Below the pieces are notes generated by a model, which was not told the origin of the DNA, searched no databases, and saw only the letters and a program-made list of their open reading frames with translations. Below are positions 44,185 to 48,729 of a stretch of DNA of 64,000 nucleotides, in pieces (positions within the stretch are counted from its first letter, which is position 1; the number at the start of each line of letters is the position of its first letter). The translations under genes and the position numbers were made by a program. The stretch is from Gordonia humi (lineage in GTDB: Bacteria > Actinomycetota > Actinomycetes > Mycobacteriales > Mycobacteriaceae): positions 4,402,001 to 4,466,000 of the forward strand of contig NZ_JACIFP010000001.1 in assembly GCF_014197435.1 (NCBI RefSeq). The letters run 5' to 3'.

Positions 44185-44211
44185 TGAAGCGCCCTGGGTT
44201 TCGTTCCGTGG

Positions 44212-44502
44212 TTACACGGTCGCGGTCGTCGTGGTGTGAGTGTAGGTCGCTTCGACGTTCGCCGGGGTGCGGTAGCCGAGAGCTTCGTGGAGCCGGGAGG
44301 TGTTCCACCAGTGGACCCAGCCCATCGTGGCGAGCTCAACCTCGCTGACTGACTCCCAGATCCGCTTGGAGTAGATCAACTCCGCCTTGTATAGGCCGTT
44401 CACTGTCTCGACCAGCGCGTTATCGTAGCTATCGCCGACGGTACCTACTGAAGCCGTAACTCCCGCGGCGAGCAGAGCGTCCGAATAGGCGAACGAAACG
44501 TA
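44212..44502 (-). pseudogene. IS3-A transposase OrfB, 3' part
   Basis: Encodes [46 protein letters not shown]... to the stop at 44212, the C-terminal part of an IS3 OrfB with the last catalytic Glu (ALVE). The preceding piece, [26 protein letters not shown] with the second catalytic Asp, lies 4.1 kb away at 48637-48729. Removing the IS30 insertion and one CAA copy joins them exactly as ...[16 protein letters not shown].... Confidence 0.85.
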
Positions 44503-44505
44503 TTG

Positions 44506-44533
44506 GGCGCGTTCAATCGGTCGTTGCAACACC
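44506..44533. repeat. IS30 terminal inverted repeat, left
   Basis: Starts GGCGCGTTCAATCGGTCG and pairs with 48609-48636 (23 of 28 bases). Confidence 0.85.
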
Positions 44534-44701
44534 GGGTTGTTGGATCGAGCATAGCTGCTCGGCGAACACCTCGGCGGGAGTGCGCCAGCCCAGGCTCTTG
44601 CGGGGCCGGTTGTTGAGCGCGAGAGCGACGGCTTCGAGGTCGTCGGCGGACCACCGGGACAGGTCCGTGCCCTTCGGGAAGTACTGACGTAACAATCCGT
44701 T
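44513..44701 (-). pseudogene. IS30 transposase, 3' fragment
   Basis: Encodes [50 protein letters not shown] and ends in the left IR. This is the conserved C-terminus of IS30 transposases. It continues the interrupted gene that starts at 48586; the split is between ...PTNENT and NGLL.... Confidence 0.9.
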
Positions 44702-44718
44702 CGACGCTCCTATGTATG

Positions 44719-45786
44719 TCAAGCCGCTGCGGGCGTGGTCACGAGCTGGGCTGCGGCTTCGATTCGTCGGTAGAGGCGTCGAGCGAGTGCGCGCTTGACG
44801 GAGCGTCGGATGTCGCGGTGTGTTTTGCCCTCGGCGGTGCGTCGAATCTCGTAGGCACGGGTCTCGGGGTGGCACCTCATCCGAGTGATGGCGACCGTGT
44901 GTAGGGCGCGGTTCAGTGCGCGGTCGCCACCGCGGTTGAGTCGGTGCCGGGAGTGTTGTCCGCTGCTTGTTTCAAGAGGGGCGACGCCGGCCAGCGATGC
45001 GAAGGCTGCTTCGTTGCGGACGCGTCCGTGGTGGGACCAGCTGATCAGCAGTTGCGCGGCGACCACCGGGCCGACACCGGGCTCGTCAAGCAGGACTGGT
45101 CCTGCCGGGTGCTGCTTGATCAGCTCCAGCAGCTGGGGATCGAGCTCTGCCAGTTGAGTAAACAAGAACTTCACTCGCGCAGCGATGGACTGCAGGCTGA
45201 ACACGCACAGGCGGTGCTCGATCGATGCTGTCGCTGAAACTTGTAGCTCTTCGATCCGGGTGAGCTGGCTGCGCAGCGTCCGTCCGCGCAACTGCGCACG
45301 GATCTGTTCGGGTGCAACGACGATCAGGCTCTTGAGCTCGTTGATGGCCTTGGTCCGGCTGACCAAAACACCTTCCCGACAAGCGAATACCATTCGTAAC
45401 GCTTCGCGTAGGCCGCCGGCTCTCGGCGCGCCCTGCTCATCTCGAGCCAGTGCCTGGCGTGCGGCGCGGATAGCGTCGATACGATCGTTTTTAGCACCGT
45501 GGGACCGTTTGAGAGCGCCGACCTCGGCTACTGTCTCGTCGGCATCGATGAGGACAGCGGCCAGGCTGGCAGCGAAGCTGCCGGTCCCTTCCAATGCCCA
45601 GATCCGCCGACCAGGAGCGTGTTCGTCGGCCCAGGTGAGCATCCGTTCGTAACCAGCGCCATCTGCCGCCTCAGCCACGTGGGCGAGCACGCGCCCGGTG
45701 CCGGTATCGAGTACGGCGAGGTCGATCGTGTCGCGGTCCGGATCGCCACCGATGACGAAGTCGTAGTCCTCTGCGAGCATGGCCAT
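44719..45786 (-). CDS. IS110-family transposase (DEDD recombinase)
   Basis: 355 residues from ATG 45786, preceded by AGGAAGGACAACCGCA; upstream ATGs at 45825 and 45813 have poorer signals. The N-terminal RuvC-like DEDD domain ([42 protein letters not shown]) is followed by a coiled-coil region. The C-terminal Tnp20 domain ([65 protein letters not shown]) carries the catalytic serine region. The frame is intact. Activity would need a bridge RNA, and its likely template is interrupted by IS3-B. Confidence 0.92.
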
Positions 45787-45936
45787 TGCGGTTGTCCTTC
45801 CTGTTGAAGTCATCGTGGAAGGCATCGGCCTGGGTGAAGGTCACAGGTCGCGGCAGCACTGTGAGGGGTCACGCCGGCGAACGGCGGACAAGCTCCTAAT
45901 CAAGCCAAGACGAGTGGGCCAGGTCGGTGCCGGGTC

Positions 45937-45956
45937 TGCTGCACGGATAGGTGACA
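45937..45956. repeat. IS3-B terminal inverted repeat, left
   Basis: TGCTGCACGGATAGGTGACA, exact reverse complement at 47181-47200. Confidence 0.95.
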
Positions 45957-46829: not shown

Positions 46830-47143
46830 GAGCGGGTAGAGCCTTTTCCCGGCAGGTTCGCCTGCGACAGATACGCCGCGGCTCTGCGCAGGACCTCATT
46901 CTCCTGCTCCAGCAACCGGATTCGCTTGTTCGCTTCCCGTAGCTCCGCCCACTGCCCGCTCGTCACCCCGGGCTTGTTGCCGTCGTCGATATCGGCGCGG
47001 CGCATCCACTTCTGCAAGGTCATCGGGTGCACCCCGAAGTCCTTCGCAATCTGCTCGATCGTCACACCGATTTCACGGTCCCGGGCAACCCGAACCACGT
47101 CATCACGGAACTCTTTCGGATAAGGCTTGGGCACGATGGTCAT
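46826..47143 (-). CDS. IS3-B transposase OrfA
   Basis: 105 residues: a helix-turn-helix (YPKEFRDDVVRVARDREIGVTIEQIAKDFGVHPMTLQKWMRRADID) and a leucine-zipper-like C-terminus (ELREANKRIRLLEQENEVLRRAAAYL), the standard OrfA of IS3 elements. It provides DNA binding for the OrfAB transposase. Confidence 0.93.
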   Translation of the reverse strand: MTIVPKPYPKEFRDDVVRVARDREIGVTIEQIAKDFGVHPMTLQKWMRRADIDDGNKPGVTSGQWAELREANKRIRLLEQENEVLRRAAAYLSQANLPGKGSTRS

Positions 47144-47180
47144 CCTTCCAGGCCGGCCTTCCCAGGCAAGCCAGATCAGA

Positions 47181-47200
47181 TGTCACCTATCCGTGCAGCA
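47181..47200. repeat. IS3-B terminal inverted repeat, right
   Basis: Exact reverse complement of 45937-45956. Confidence 0.95.
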
Positions 47201-47333
47201 GTCCCCCGACAACCCCAGGGACAGGTCAAACGAAAGACACGCCAACGAGGCCGGTCAGTATTCTCGAGAGTCACCTCGAGTTGTCGGTACCAGCCTGGCT
47301 CAACAACCCAACCGAGCCGCTTCGATACTCACA

Positions 47334-48586
47334 GTGTTCTCGTTCGTCGGCCGTTGCCAGGGCGAGTGAGGGTCGGCGAAGAACACTTTCGTGCCCGTTT
47401 CGAGCGCGAACTGGGCGTGGGCGGACAGTTCCTTGCCGCGGTCCCAGGTGAGCGTCCTACGGAGCTGTTCGGGAAGCTTCATCATCGACGCTGTGAGCGC
47501 GACGTTCATCGCGACGGCGCCATAGCCGGCGAGCGCCGGGCCGTTCTTCACCGGCGGGCTCTGGCCATAGCCCTCCAGCCGCGGCAGATGCACCAGCAGG
47601 GTCGAGCGGCTCGCGCGTTCGACGATCGTGCCAATCGCGGTCTTGTTCTGCTCCCCGGTGATCAGATCGCCCTCCCAGTGCCCGGGAACGGCGCGGTCGG
47701 CTGCCTCTGCGGGGCGCTTGGAGAACACGACGTCGGCGGTGACATGCCCGTGTGGTCGGTTCTGTGCTCGAGCCCGTGGCCGACGCAGTGCACGGCCTGT
47801 TCGCAGACAGGTGACGAGCTCACGTTCGAGGGCGCCACGGCCCTGGATGAACAGCGACTGGTAGATCGCTTCGTGGCTGATGCGCATGGACTCATCATCG
47901 GGGAAGTCGACCTTCAGGCGGTGCGATATCTGCTCCGGGCTCCACGCCAGCGCCCACCTACGGTCCTGCCGGTGCGGCTTGTTCAGCCCCTTCCATGCCG
48001 GCGGCTCAGGCCCGACGACAACCCTGCCGTCCGGTCGACGGATGTTGCCGGCCAGTCGTTCCTGGACGTACCCACGCAACCGGTCGTTGGTCACCAGCTT
48101 CGCTGTCTTCGGTCGCTTCGCCGCCTGCTGGGCTTTCCACTGCGCCACCAACGCGCGGTACTCCTGCTTCCCACCGCGCGTGGCTGCGTTGCGGCGCAAC
48201 TCACGCGAGATCGTTCCCGGGTCGCGGCCAGTCCTGCGTGCGATCTCACGCACGCCGACCTGCCTGGCGCGCAGGAGCGCGATCTCCTCACGCTCGGCGA
48301 AAGACAGATAGCGGCCGGTAGGTTCAGCAAGCGAGATCGGAGCCATACCGCCAGCGTGACGGAACCAGCGAGCGCCAACCGGCACAGACACGCCCACCGT
48401 CAACGCCGCTTCGGCCGAGTTGATGCCCGTCGCGATCAGGCGCCAGAACTGCCGCTGCACCGCCCGAGAGGGTTCGGGCCGTCCGGGCGAGCGCATCGGC
48501 GGGCGCAATGCCCGATCGGCACGCCACTGCCGCCGAGCCCCTTCCAGAACCCCGCTCGTCTTCGCAGACCAGTCCTTTGTCGCCAC
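47334..48586 (-). pseudogene. IS30 transposase, 5' part (interrupted by IS110)
   Basis: About 417 residues from GTG 48586: HTH region (YLSFAEREEIALLRARQVGVREIARRTGRDPGTISRELRRN) and catalytic DDE in PGHWEGDLITGEQNK, LTWDRGKELSAH and HSPWQRPTNEN. After NENT the frame runs into IS110 DNA and stops at 47300 with eleven foreign residues. All three acidic residues survive, but about 60 C-terminal residues are separated (44513-44701), so it is probably inactive. Confidence 0.9.
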
Positions 48587-48608
48587 TGCTGAACACCTCC
48601 ACAGTCAA

Positions 48609-48636
48609 GGTGTTGCGACGACCATTTGAATCCGCC
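48609..48636. repeat. IS30 terminal inverted repeat, right
   Basis: Reverse complement of 44506-44533 at 23 of 28 positions; followed by the target duplication TTG at 48637-48639. Confidence 0.85.
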
Positions 48637-48729
48637 TTGACTTCCGGCATCGCTGTGATGCACCAAACCGGTCGGAGTGAAAGCGAATTCACCTCTCCGA
48701 CGAGTGAACAGTGCTTGCTCTATGATCCA
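48637..48729 (-). pseudogene. IS3-A transposase OrfB, internal fragment
   Basis: About 30 codons: [30 protein letters not shown], containing the second DDE aspartate. It is the upstream continuation of 44212-44502. Its own 5' side is cut by IS3-C. Confidence 0.8.

Follow-up and report, generated by a model that had tools for sequence, protein, structure and literature searches.

A nest of insertion sequences in Gordonia humi with recurring IS30 and IS110 target sites in transposase genes

Introduction

IS621, an insertion sequence (IS) of the IS110 group, is guided by a bridge RNA in which a target loop is followed by a donor loop, the 5′ sides of the loops reading the bottom strand and the 3′ sides the top strand (PMC11208160). 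The targets of Escherichia coli IS30 are near-palindromic hot spots or the ends of the element itself, and its insertion duplicates 2 bp (PMC9333248). Here, we describe a 64,000-nt stretch of the Gordonia humi genome (the window, to which coordinates refer unless a locus is named; the genome, G000, has 5.09 Mb in three contigs), in which an IS3 element (IS3-B) lies in an IS110 element, IS110 in an IS30 element, and IS30 in a piece of another IS3 element (IS3-A).

The IS110 of the window has in common with IS621 and its group a DEDD recombinase, a non-coding left end with two predicted loops of the same strand arrangement and a 2-nt core. IS621 is reported from repetitive extragenic palindromic (REP) elements (PMC11208160), whereas the target in the clade of the window copy is a conserved codon block of IS30 transposase genes; the donor core is CT in IS621 but TC here, where the target-side core varies and the copy is split by IS3-B. 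The IS30 of the window resembles that of E. coli in family and in its restricted target choice, although its lineage uses HSDxGSQ-type codons of IS3 genes, with a 3-bp duplication in the window and in another copy of the same genome, L004. The IS30 elements ISLxc3/ISLxc4 and ISLxx5 of Leifsonia xyli have end sequences similar to those of the window IS30, and an NTG duplication is given for two ISLxc3 copies; unlike here, their authors report that they detected no conserved target site (PMC2516522).

Neither an IS30 lineage restricted to IS3 catalytic codons nor an IS110 address in IS30 catalytic codons was found in the literature searched, largely openly accessible articles; the element families, RNA-guided IS110 targeting and the aiming of IS1111-type elements at Tn21-family ends are already known. 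IS4321 and IS5075 of the IS1111 group reportedly target Tn21-family terminal repeats; there too an element of this recombinase class is aimed at another mobile element, although at a terminal repeat and not, as here, at a catalytic-site codon block. Homing introns and inteins land on the most conserved active-site codons, and their target is thus present in many hosts. Landing on conserved codons is common to the insertions described here, which differ in the enzymes involved and in the absence of splicing, so that the host transposase is broken by IS30 or IS110.

The nest of insertion sequences

Read on the minus strand from 50089 to 43263, the locus consists of a complete separate IS3 (IS3-C), 86 bases of IS3-A, IS30 with IS110 and IS3-B inside, the rest of IS3-A, and an integrase remnant (Table 1). 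Junctions were set by mapping each piece onto uninterrupted relatives, with no joining of sequence, and three were placed to a few bases. An earlier note on this stretch had described the same three inner levels, had put IS3-A into an integrase gene, and had suggested a search for copies lacking the inner insertion; uninterrupted relatives were found for IS30 (L004), IS110 (L029 and L030) and IS3-A (L079–L081).

In L004, an IS30 that is 98.5% identical to that of the window but has no IS110, window positions 44703 and 47334 both map to base 1501, which bears out the placement of IS110 in the IS30 transposase gene. This gene scores 183 with NF033563 (cut-off 80) and is above cut-off with PF13936 in the profile search, while rve (31.2) falls just under its cut-off of 32.6 because the gene is broken. 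The 28-bp inverted ends of IS30 (23 of 28 matching) and the CAA duplication at its insertion were correctly read in the note. The duplication is 3 bp long (CAA in the window, CAG in L004) and does not have the 2-bp length known from E. coli IS30; the IS30 family is not known to be defined by the length of its target duplication. By eye, most differences between the IS30 of the window and that of L004 fall in a single short cluster (window 47630-47660, L004 1797-1828), which resembles the outcome of a conversion or a recombination patch.

In two IS110 relatives without IS3-B, L029 (protein identity 84%) and L030 (86%, for the part available), both sides of the IS3-B site map at most four bases apart, and full copies of IS3-B exist elsewhere in the genome (L012, 100% identical; L013, 99%), in agreement with an insertion of IS3-B into IS110. 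The IS110 recombinase is above cut-off with PF01548 and PF02371 and scores 162.9 with NF033542 (cut-off 140); a DNA search for another IS110 copy in the own genome gave one match alone, 68% over 225 bases. IS3-B has inverted ends, an orfB scoring 243.2 with NF033516 (cut-off 160) and an orfA scoring 32.2 with PF01527. Its inverted repeat, GGG(A/T)CTGCTGCACGGATAGGTGACA, is 25 bp long with 24 of 25 matching and is present in all three copies. GTC, which had been taken as the target duplication of IS3-B, stands at the same place in all three and is part of this repeat, which rules out that role. The flanks of L013 are CAT on both sides, a 3-bp duplication, and those of the window copy share GG only.

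IS30 had also been placed in orfB of IS3-A. In L079–L081 the two IS3-A pieces meet in register and are contiguous where the window has IS30, which agrees with that placement, although the short right-hand piece matches weakly (E 0.007), against about 75% for the long piece. The domain rve_3 was detected, and the 3′ part of orfB alone remains (about 44185-44505 and 48637-48722). Because identical copies and contiguous uninterrupted relatives exist, a chance origin of the reconstruction is excluded. Judged by these junctions, the nest is real and the order of events is IS3-A, then IS30, then IS110, then IS3-B. Both the relative order of insertions and the exact target sites of IS30 and IS110 stand as noted before; the nesting had then served as a dating aid, and the site specificity and recurrence of the IS30 and IS110 steps had been missed.

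Insertion of IS30 into IS3 transposase genes

The IS30 of L004 lies in a different IS3 gene from that of the window, at the same codon, CAG in L004 and CAA in the window encoding the Gln of HHSDAGSQ. We take the Asp of HSD, the second catalytic Asp of IS3 transposases, and the Glu of NEN in IS30 transposases to be catalytic residues. A DNA search of 397 genomes of the order with this IS30 gave 46 matches at E <= 1e-60 in 39 genomes, the own one included. Thirty matches became loci, and with L047 (the window itself) removed and L004 added, 30 loci (L004, L048–L076) were searched by BLAST with two intact IS3 orfB proteins, each divided into halves at the motif. An IS3 orfB was broken at the last codon of the HSDxGSQ-type motif in 25 of these loci. 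Both halves abut IS30 in 16 and one half in eight; L065 was assigned by reading, its own flank being AHSDRGSQ, where the automated call took a neighbouring unbroken IS3. In the 20 of the 25 positives that have an N side in the IS30 orientation, the last codons are HSDxG-x-Q, or ..N in two cases, with HTD once, and third codon positions vary. Nine of 10 plasmid regions, examined out of 30 listed matches, agree by BLAST.

A chance nest, in which insertions accumulate where they are harmless in an IS-rich 'safe harbour' and their order reflects no mechanism, would fit the varied flanks of IS3-B and IS3-C, an IS3-B site that is not repeated in its other two copies, and the five of 30 IS30 loci without an IS3 flank. 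As an explanation of the whole it is very improbable, because relatives of this IS30 in many genomes hit one codon in different IS3 genes and relatives of IS110, as described below, hit one codon in different IS30 genes. In addition, six copies of another IS30 in the same genome, used as a control, have no IS3 in their flanks, so that IS3 targeting is not a habit of every IS30. For IS3-B and IS3-C chance nesting holds as an explanation, whereas the IS30 and IS110 data contradict it.

Alternatively, ancient IS30-in-IS3 and IS110-in-IS30 units might have spread whole, the shared junctions then being a matter of descent. Some records do look like one event each (L037/L046, L095/L099 and L097/L098, the last two pairs being apparent repeat records of plasmid insertions). 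Yet similar IS30 elements have unrelated flanks: the IS30s of L056 and L057 are 97% identical with flanks scoring 0.74 against 0.73 for shuffled ones under a lenient aligner, and the IS3 flanks of the window and L004 score 0.76-0.77 against 0.73. Insertions also occur in both orientations, the opposite one being found in three of the 30 loci (L067, L070, L071) and in the plasmids L096, L097 and L098, and the IS30 genes that host IS110 relatives are 39-56% (N part) and 45-63% (C part) identical to that of the window. Spread by descent is therefore given hardly any probability.

Independent insertion at a fixed target is what the junctions favour, and several points count against a strict rule. 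Fifteen of the 46 matches lay outside the survey, five loci (L050, L054, L055, L068, L072) have no IS3 flank, and plasmid L094 has SHSDNG near its end with no BLAST match. In some loci the motif closes with an Asn or a Glu codon, Glu being found in plasmids L090 and L095/L099. On the recurrence of the junction, the IS30 step is targeted to the last codon of the HSDxGSQ-type motif, and we infer that the IS30 protein reads the DNA of the motif.

Insertion of IS110 into IS30 transposase genes

The loci of 17 IS110 relatives were searched with the two halves of the IS30 protein, each separately. Matches at the NEN / NGL boundary were obtained on both sides in L029 and L037/L046 (L037 being a copy on a Pseudonocardia plasmid), on the left in L030, and on the right in L031 and L039, the latter being degenerate; L077 has the same IS30 right flank by reading. 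Counting L037 and L046 as one event, six of the seven distinct insertions of close relatives (68-86% identical, with no figure for L077) share this codon of an IS30 gene as their site. Seven places in the genome match the degenerate address GARAACACNAAYGG; all of them fall in NENTNG codons of IS30 genes and are unoccupied by construction. The reversed pattern, used as a control, matches 0 times.

The sample of close relatives is small, at seven distinct insertions with two readable on both sides, and one of them, L038 (1543-2925; 68.5% identical), lies outside IS30 genes at a site with no more than the left half of the address; both facts weigh against a general rule. No IS30 match was found for ten more distant relatives (L032–L035, L040–L045). 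Strict searches for IS110 gave matches in one of 397 genomes of the order (E <= 1e-100) and two of 394 of the class (E <= 1e-110), the own genome included, and a scan of viral contigs gave 27 pattern matches and 0 relatives. As judged from the recurring boundary, the IS110 step is targeted to the NENT/NGL codons of IS30 genes.

Two further observations concern these elements. The IS110 of L038 sits between an apparent ribosome-binding site and an apparent start codon. Another IS30 is present in six copies identical over about 1.46 kb (L005–L010), each with an exact, unoccupied IS110 address; several of their flanks resemble, by eye, a GC-rich terminator sequence.

A predicted bridge RNA of IS110

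In the predicted fold of thirteen intact left ends of IS110 relatives, two stems, each with an internal loop, flank a small hairpin. The fold has 26 pairs, 12 of them with double changes, and 92.8% of cells are paired, compared with 28-53% in slid controls; by each of five measures, 0 of 500 shuffles came up to the observed value. In the window, the halves of the left end, kept apart, align to the left ends of the relatives. An early assignment of the core as CT was replaced, after comparison of relatives, by AC on the target side and TC on the donor side.

The 5′ side of the first loop contains a predicted 9-nt guide (left target guide, LTG), and that of the window, CGAGAAUAC, fits CGAGAACAC with one wobble. 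LTG pairing was compared in elements with a readable left flank, leaving out L031, L035 and L077 (no readable left flank), L039 (decayed) and L046 (the same as L037). Over 14 elements with 10 distinct guides, a mean of 8.36 of 9 positions pair with the own target, compared with 4.94 in 162 swaps with the targets of elements bearing other guides, and in 11 of the 14 no such foreign target reaches the own score. The right target guide (RTG) of the window pairs at 6 of 6 positions with wobbles counted. The right donor guide (RDG) fits the left-end CTGTGAG, yet is nearly constant among elements.

The guide matches are qualified by several results that tell against RNA guidance. The shuffles of the fold do not remove relatedness; the LTG comparison was not blind, the guides having been placed by eye beforehand and a one-base shift being allowed for own and swapped targets; and in L040, L041 and L044 the score of the own target is equalled or exceeded by that of one foreign target. 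RTG pairing is weaker, 4.33 of 6 against 2.79 swapped in nine elements, with 3 of 6 in L034 and L040, the latter lying under its swapped mean. The left donor guide (LDG) barely separates own (6.00 of 7) from swapped (5.07), and the two cores of one insertion differ. The moderate RTG and LDG matches would fit a preference for IS30 of the recombinase protein itself, the RNA-like left end then having another role. However, the LTG varies with the target over 10 distinct guides, and the fold matches the published two-loop layout (PMC11208160), which leaves a protein-driven preference very little chance of being correct. We consider that the left end of IS110 folds like an IS621-type bridge RNA, and its production as RNA and its guiding role are inferred from sequence comparison.

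A distant IS110 on a Rhodococcus rhodochrous plasmid (L043, 1578-2900) lies in an IS3 orfB at GDNAAME/SFFALLQ, as read from its flanks against the IS3-B protein. The site corresponds to the catalytic-Glu codons of orfB, and the LTG of L043 pairs with it at 8 of 9 positions, which hints that bridge RNAs have repeatedly been re-aimed at rival transposases.

In the window, IS3-B lies between the RTG and the LDG, so that no single short RNA can hold both predicted loops. This copy of IS110 probably cannot direct its own movement, and it might still act with a bridge RNA from another copy.

Outer boundary of the nest

The region 48723-50089 had been taken as part of IS3-A. IS3-A is a 3′ remnant, but this region is IS3-C, a separate complete IS3 of 1367 bp with five further full-length copies that are 100% identical and one more that is broken by another insertion; these copies rule out the former assignment. 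Its orfB scores 261.8 with NF033516 (cut-off 160) and its orfA 23.2 with PF01527, just under the cut-off of 24.1. Among seven copies, a 3-bp duplication is present in two (L020, CTC; L023, GGA) and absent in five, including that of the window, where CTC and TAG flank the element. Since IS3-C is complete and separate, IS3-A is truncated and its 5′ part is gone, probably by adjacent deletion or recombination. IS3-C arrived later than IS3-A, and both IS3-B and IS3-C look recent because they are identical to other copies in the genome.

The proposal that IS3-A lies in an integrase gene survives in half. Integrase sequence, itself split over several frames, adjoins IS3-A on the left, at its single surviving end; integrase on both sides was dropped as a reading, the right side being where IS3-C truncates IS3-A. 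Beyond IS3-C, 50090-50600 gave no convincing DNA match to IS3-A relatives (best E 0.05). An intact form of the integrase gene was not found by DNA search among nearby relatives, in which 17 of 61 genomes (own included) had any match; the best match to the remnant outside the own genome was weak (65% over 456 bases). A phage search with the IS3-A piece gave one weak match.

Table 1. Coordinates of the nest and of the elements predicted within it
Feature	Position	Strand	Evidence or remark
Tyrosine recombinase (integrase) remnant, several frames	43263..44184	-	PF00589; XerC/XerD models below cut-off
IS3-A remnant, orfB 3′ part, from ..YVSFAYSD.. to element end	44185..44505	-	about 75% to uninterrupted relatives L079-L081
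IS30 target duplication CAA (minus strand)	44503..44505, second copy 48637-48639	.	CAG at same codon in L004
IS30 element including inner insertions; ends 44506-44533 and 48609-48636	44506..48636	-	NF033563
IS110 element, interrupted by IS3-B; left end TGTGAGT, right end AGGAGCG-TC	44703..47333	-	NF033542
IS110 target-side core AC	47335-47334	-	flank of IS110 element
IS110 DEDD recombinase, 368 aa, frame intact	44719..45825	-	PF01548, PF02371
Predicted left target guide (LTG) CGAGAAUAC	47258..47266	-	9/9 pairing with IS30 target (8 Watson-Crick, 1 wobble)
Predicted right target guide (RTG) UCGUUU, then core guide GA	47226..47233	-	pairing with target
Predicted left donor guide (LDG) AGGAGCU	45891..45897	-	6/7 to right end AGGAGCG
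Predicted right donor guide (RDG) CUCACAG	45859..45865	-	complement of left-end CTGTGAG
IS3-B, 1274 bp, 25-bp inverted repeats, between predicted target and donor loops	45932..47205	-	full copies elsewhere in genome
IS3-A remnant, orfB codons through HHSDAGSQ; truncated by IS3-C	48637..48722	-	match to L079-L081
IS3-C, complete separate IS3, 23-bp ends (20/23), without target duplication here	48723..50089	-	copies elsewhere in genome

Other observations in the genome and the window

L012/L024 (G000:C1:3156134-3158848) is another cluster, in which 74 bp separate IS3-B from an IS3-C and an inverted 26-bp segment of the IS3-B interior stands directly at the IS3-B end. At L025 and L026 (G000:C1:644031-646970), about 1.57 kb of inserted sequence interrupts a further IS3-C copy, and its parts share about six bases. 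For an IS3 that is 74% related to IS3-B (L014–L018 and others), nine full-length matches were obtained, of which eight lie on contigs C2 and C3; three of the five copies inspected have 3-bp duplications (GGT, GTC and ACC). Two more matches at 73% are on C1. The three best named relatives of a host protein encoded near the nest (37701-38753) are from Gordonia, at 74-78% identity. Also apart from the nest, two large adjacent UvrD-helicase/PDDEXK nuclease genes are found at 55387-62944 of the window, resembling an AdnAB pair.

Proposed course of events and significance

Given the nest itself, two target sites that recur in relatives, a fold supported by covariation and guides that match their targets, the following account appears highly probable as a whole. 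The transposase of the IS30 lineage would select the DNA encoding the HSDxGSQ-type motif, which surrounds the second catalytic Asp in transposases of the IS3 family, and would insert IS30 in either orientation at the last codon, in most cases Gln; the window and L004 have 3-bp duplications. One such event would have placed IS30 in IS3-A. The left end of the IS110 clade would encode an IS621-type bridge RNA, whose LTG and RTG (UCGUUU-GA) would pair with the NEN-T-NG codons around the catalytic Glu of IS30-family transposases and so direct recombination of IS110 into them. IS3-B would then have inserted into IS110 with no evident targeting, between the target-binding and donor-binding loops, leaving no continuous short bridge RNA and hence a loss of movement in cis. 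Separately, the complete IS3-C would have replaced the 5′ part of IS3-A.

There is a somewhat better than even chance that the two targeted steps form a chain of predation, in which the IS30 lineage preys on the catalytic Asp codons of IS3 and the bridge RNA of IS110 on the catalytic Glu codons of IS30, the victims being abundant sites that are harmless to the cell and are silenced on arrival. An 'IS graveyard' of this kind would become evidence for directed competition among mobile elements. The IS110 clade would offer a natural data set in which the address of a bridge RNA can be read against its own target, and the IS30 lineage a DDE transposase that is unusually strict in choosing its target, so that the protein features responsible could be mapped. 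For annotation, we suggest that an IS3 orfB broken at HSDxGSQ or an IS30 gene broken at NENT be treated as a candidate insertion site and not only as a random pseudogene.

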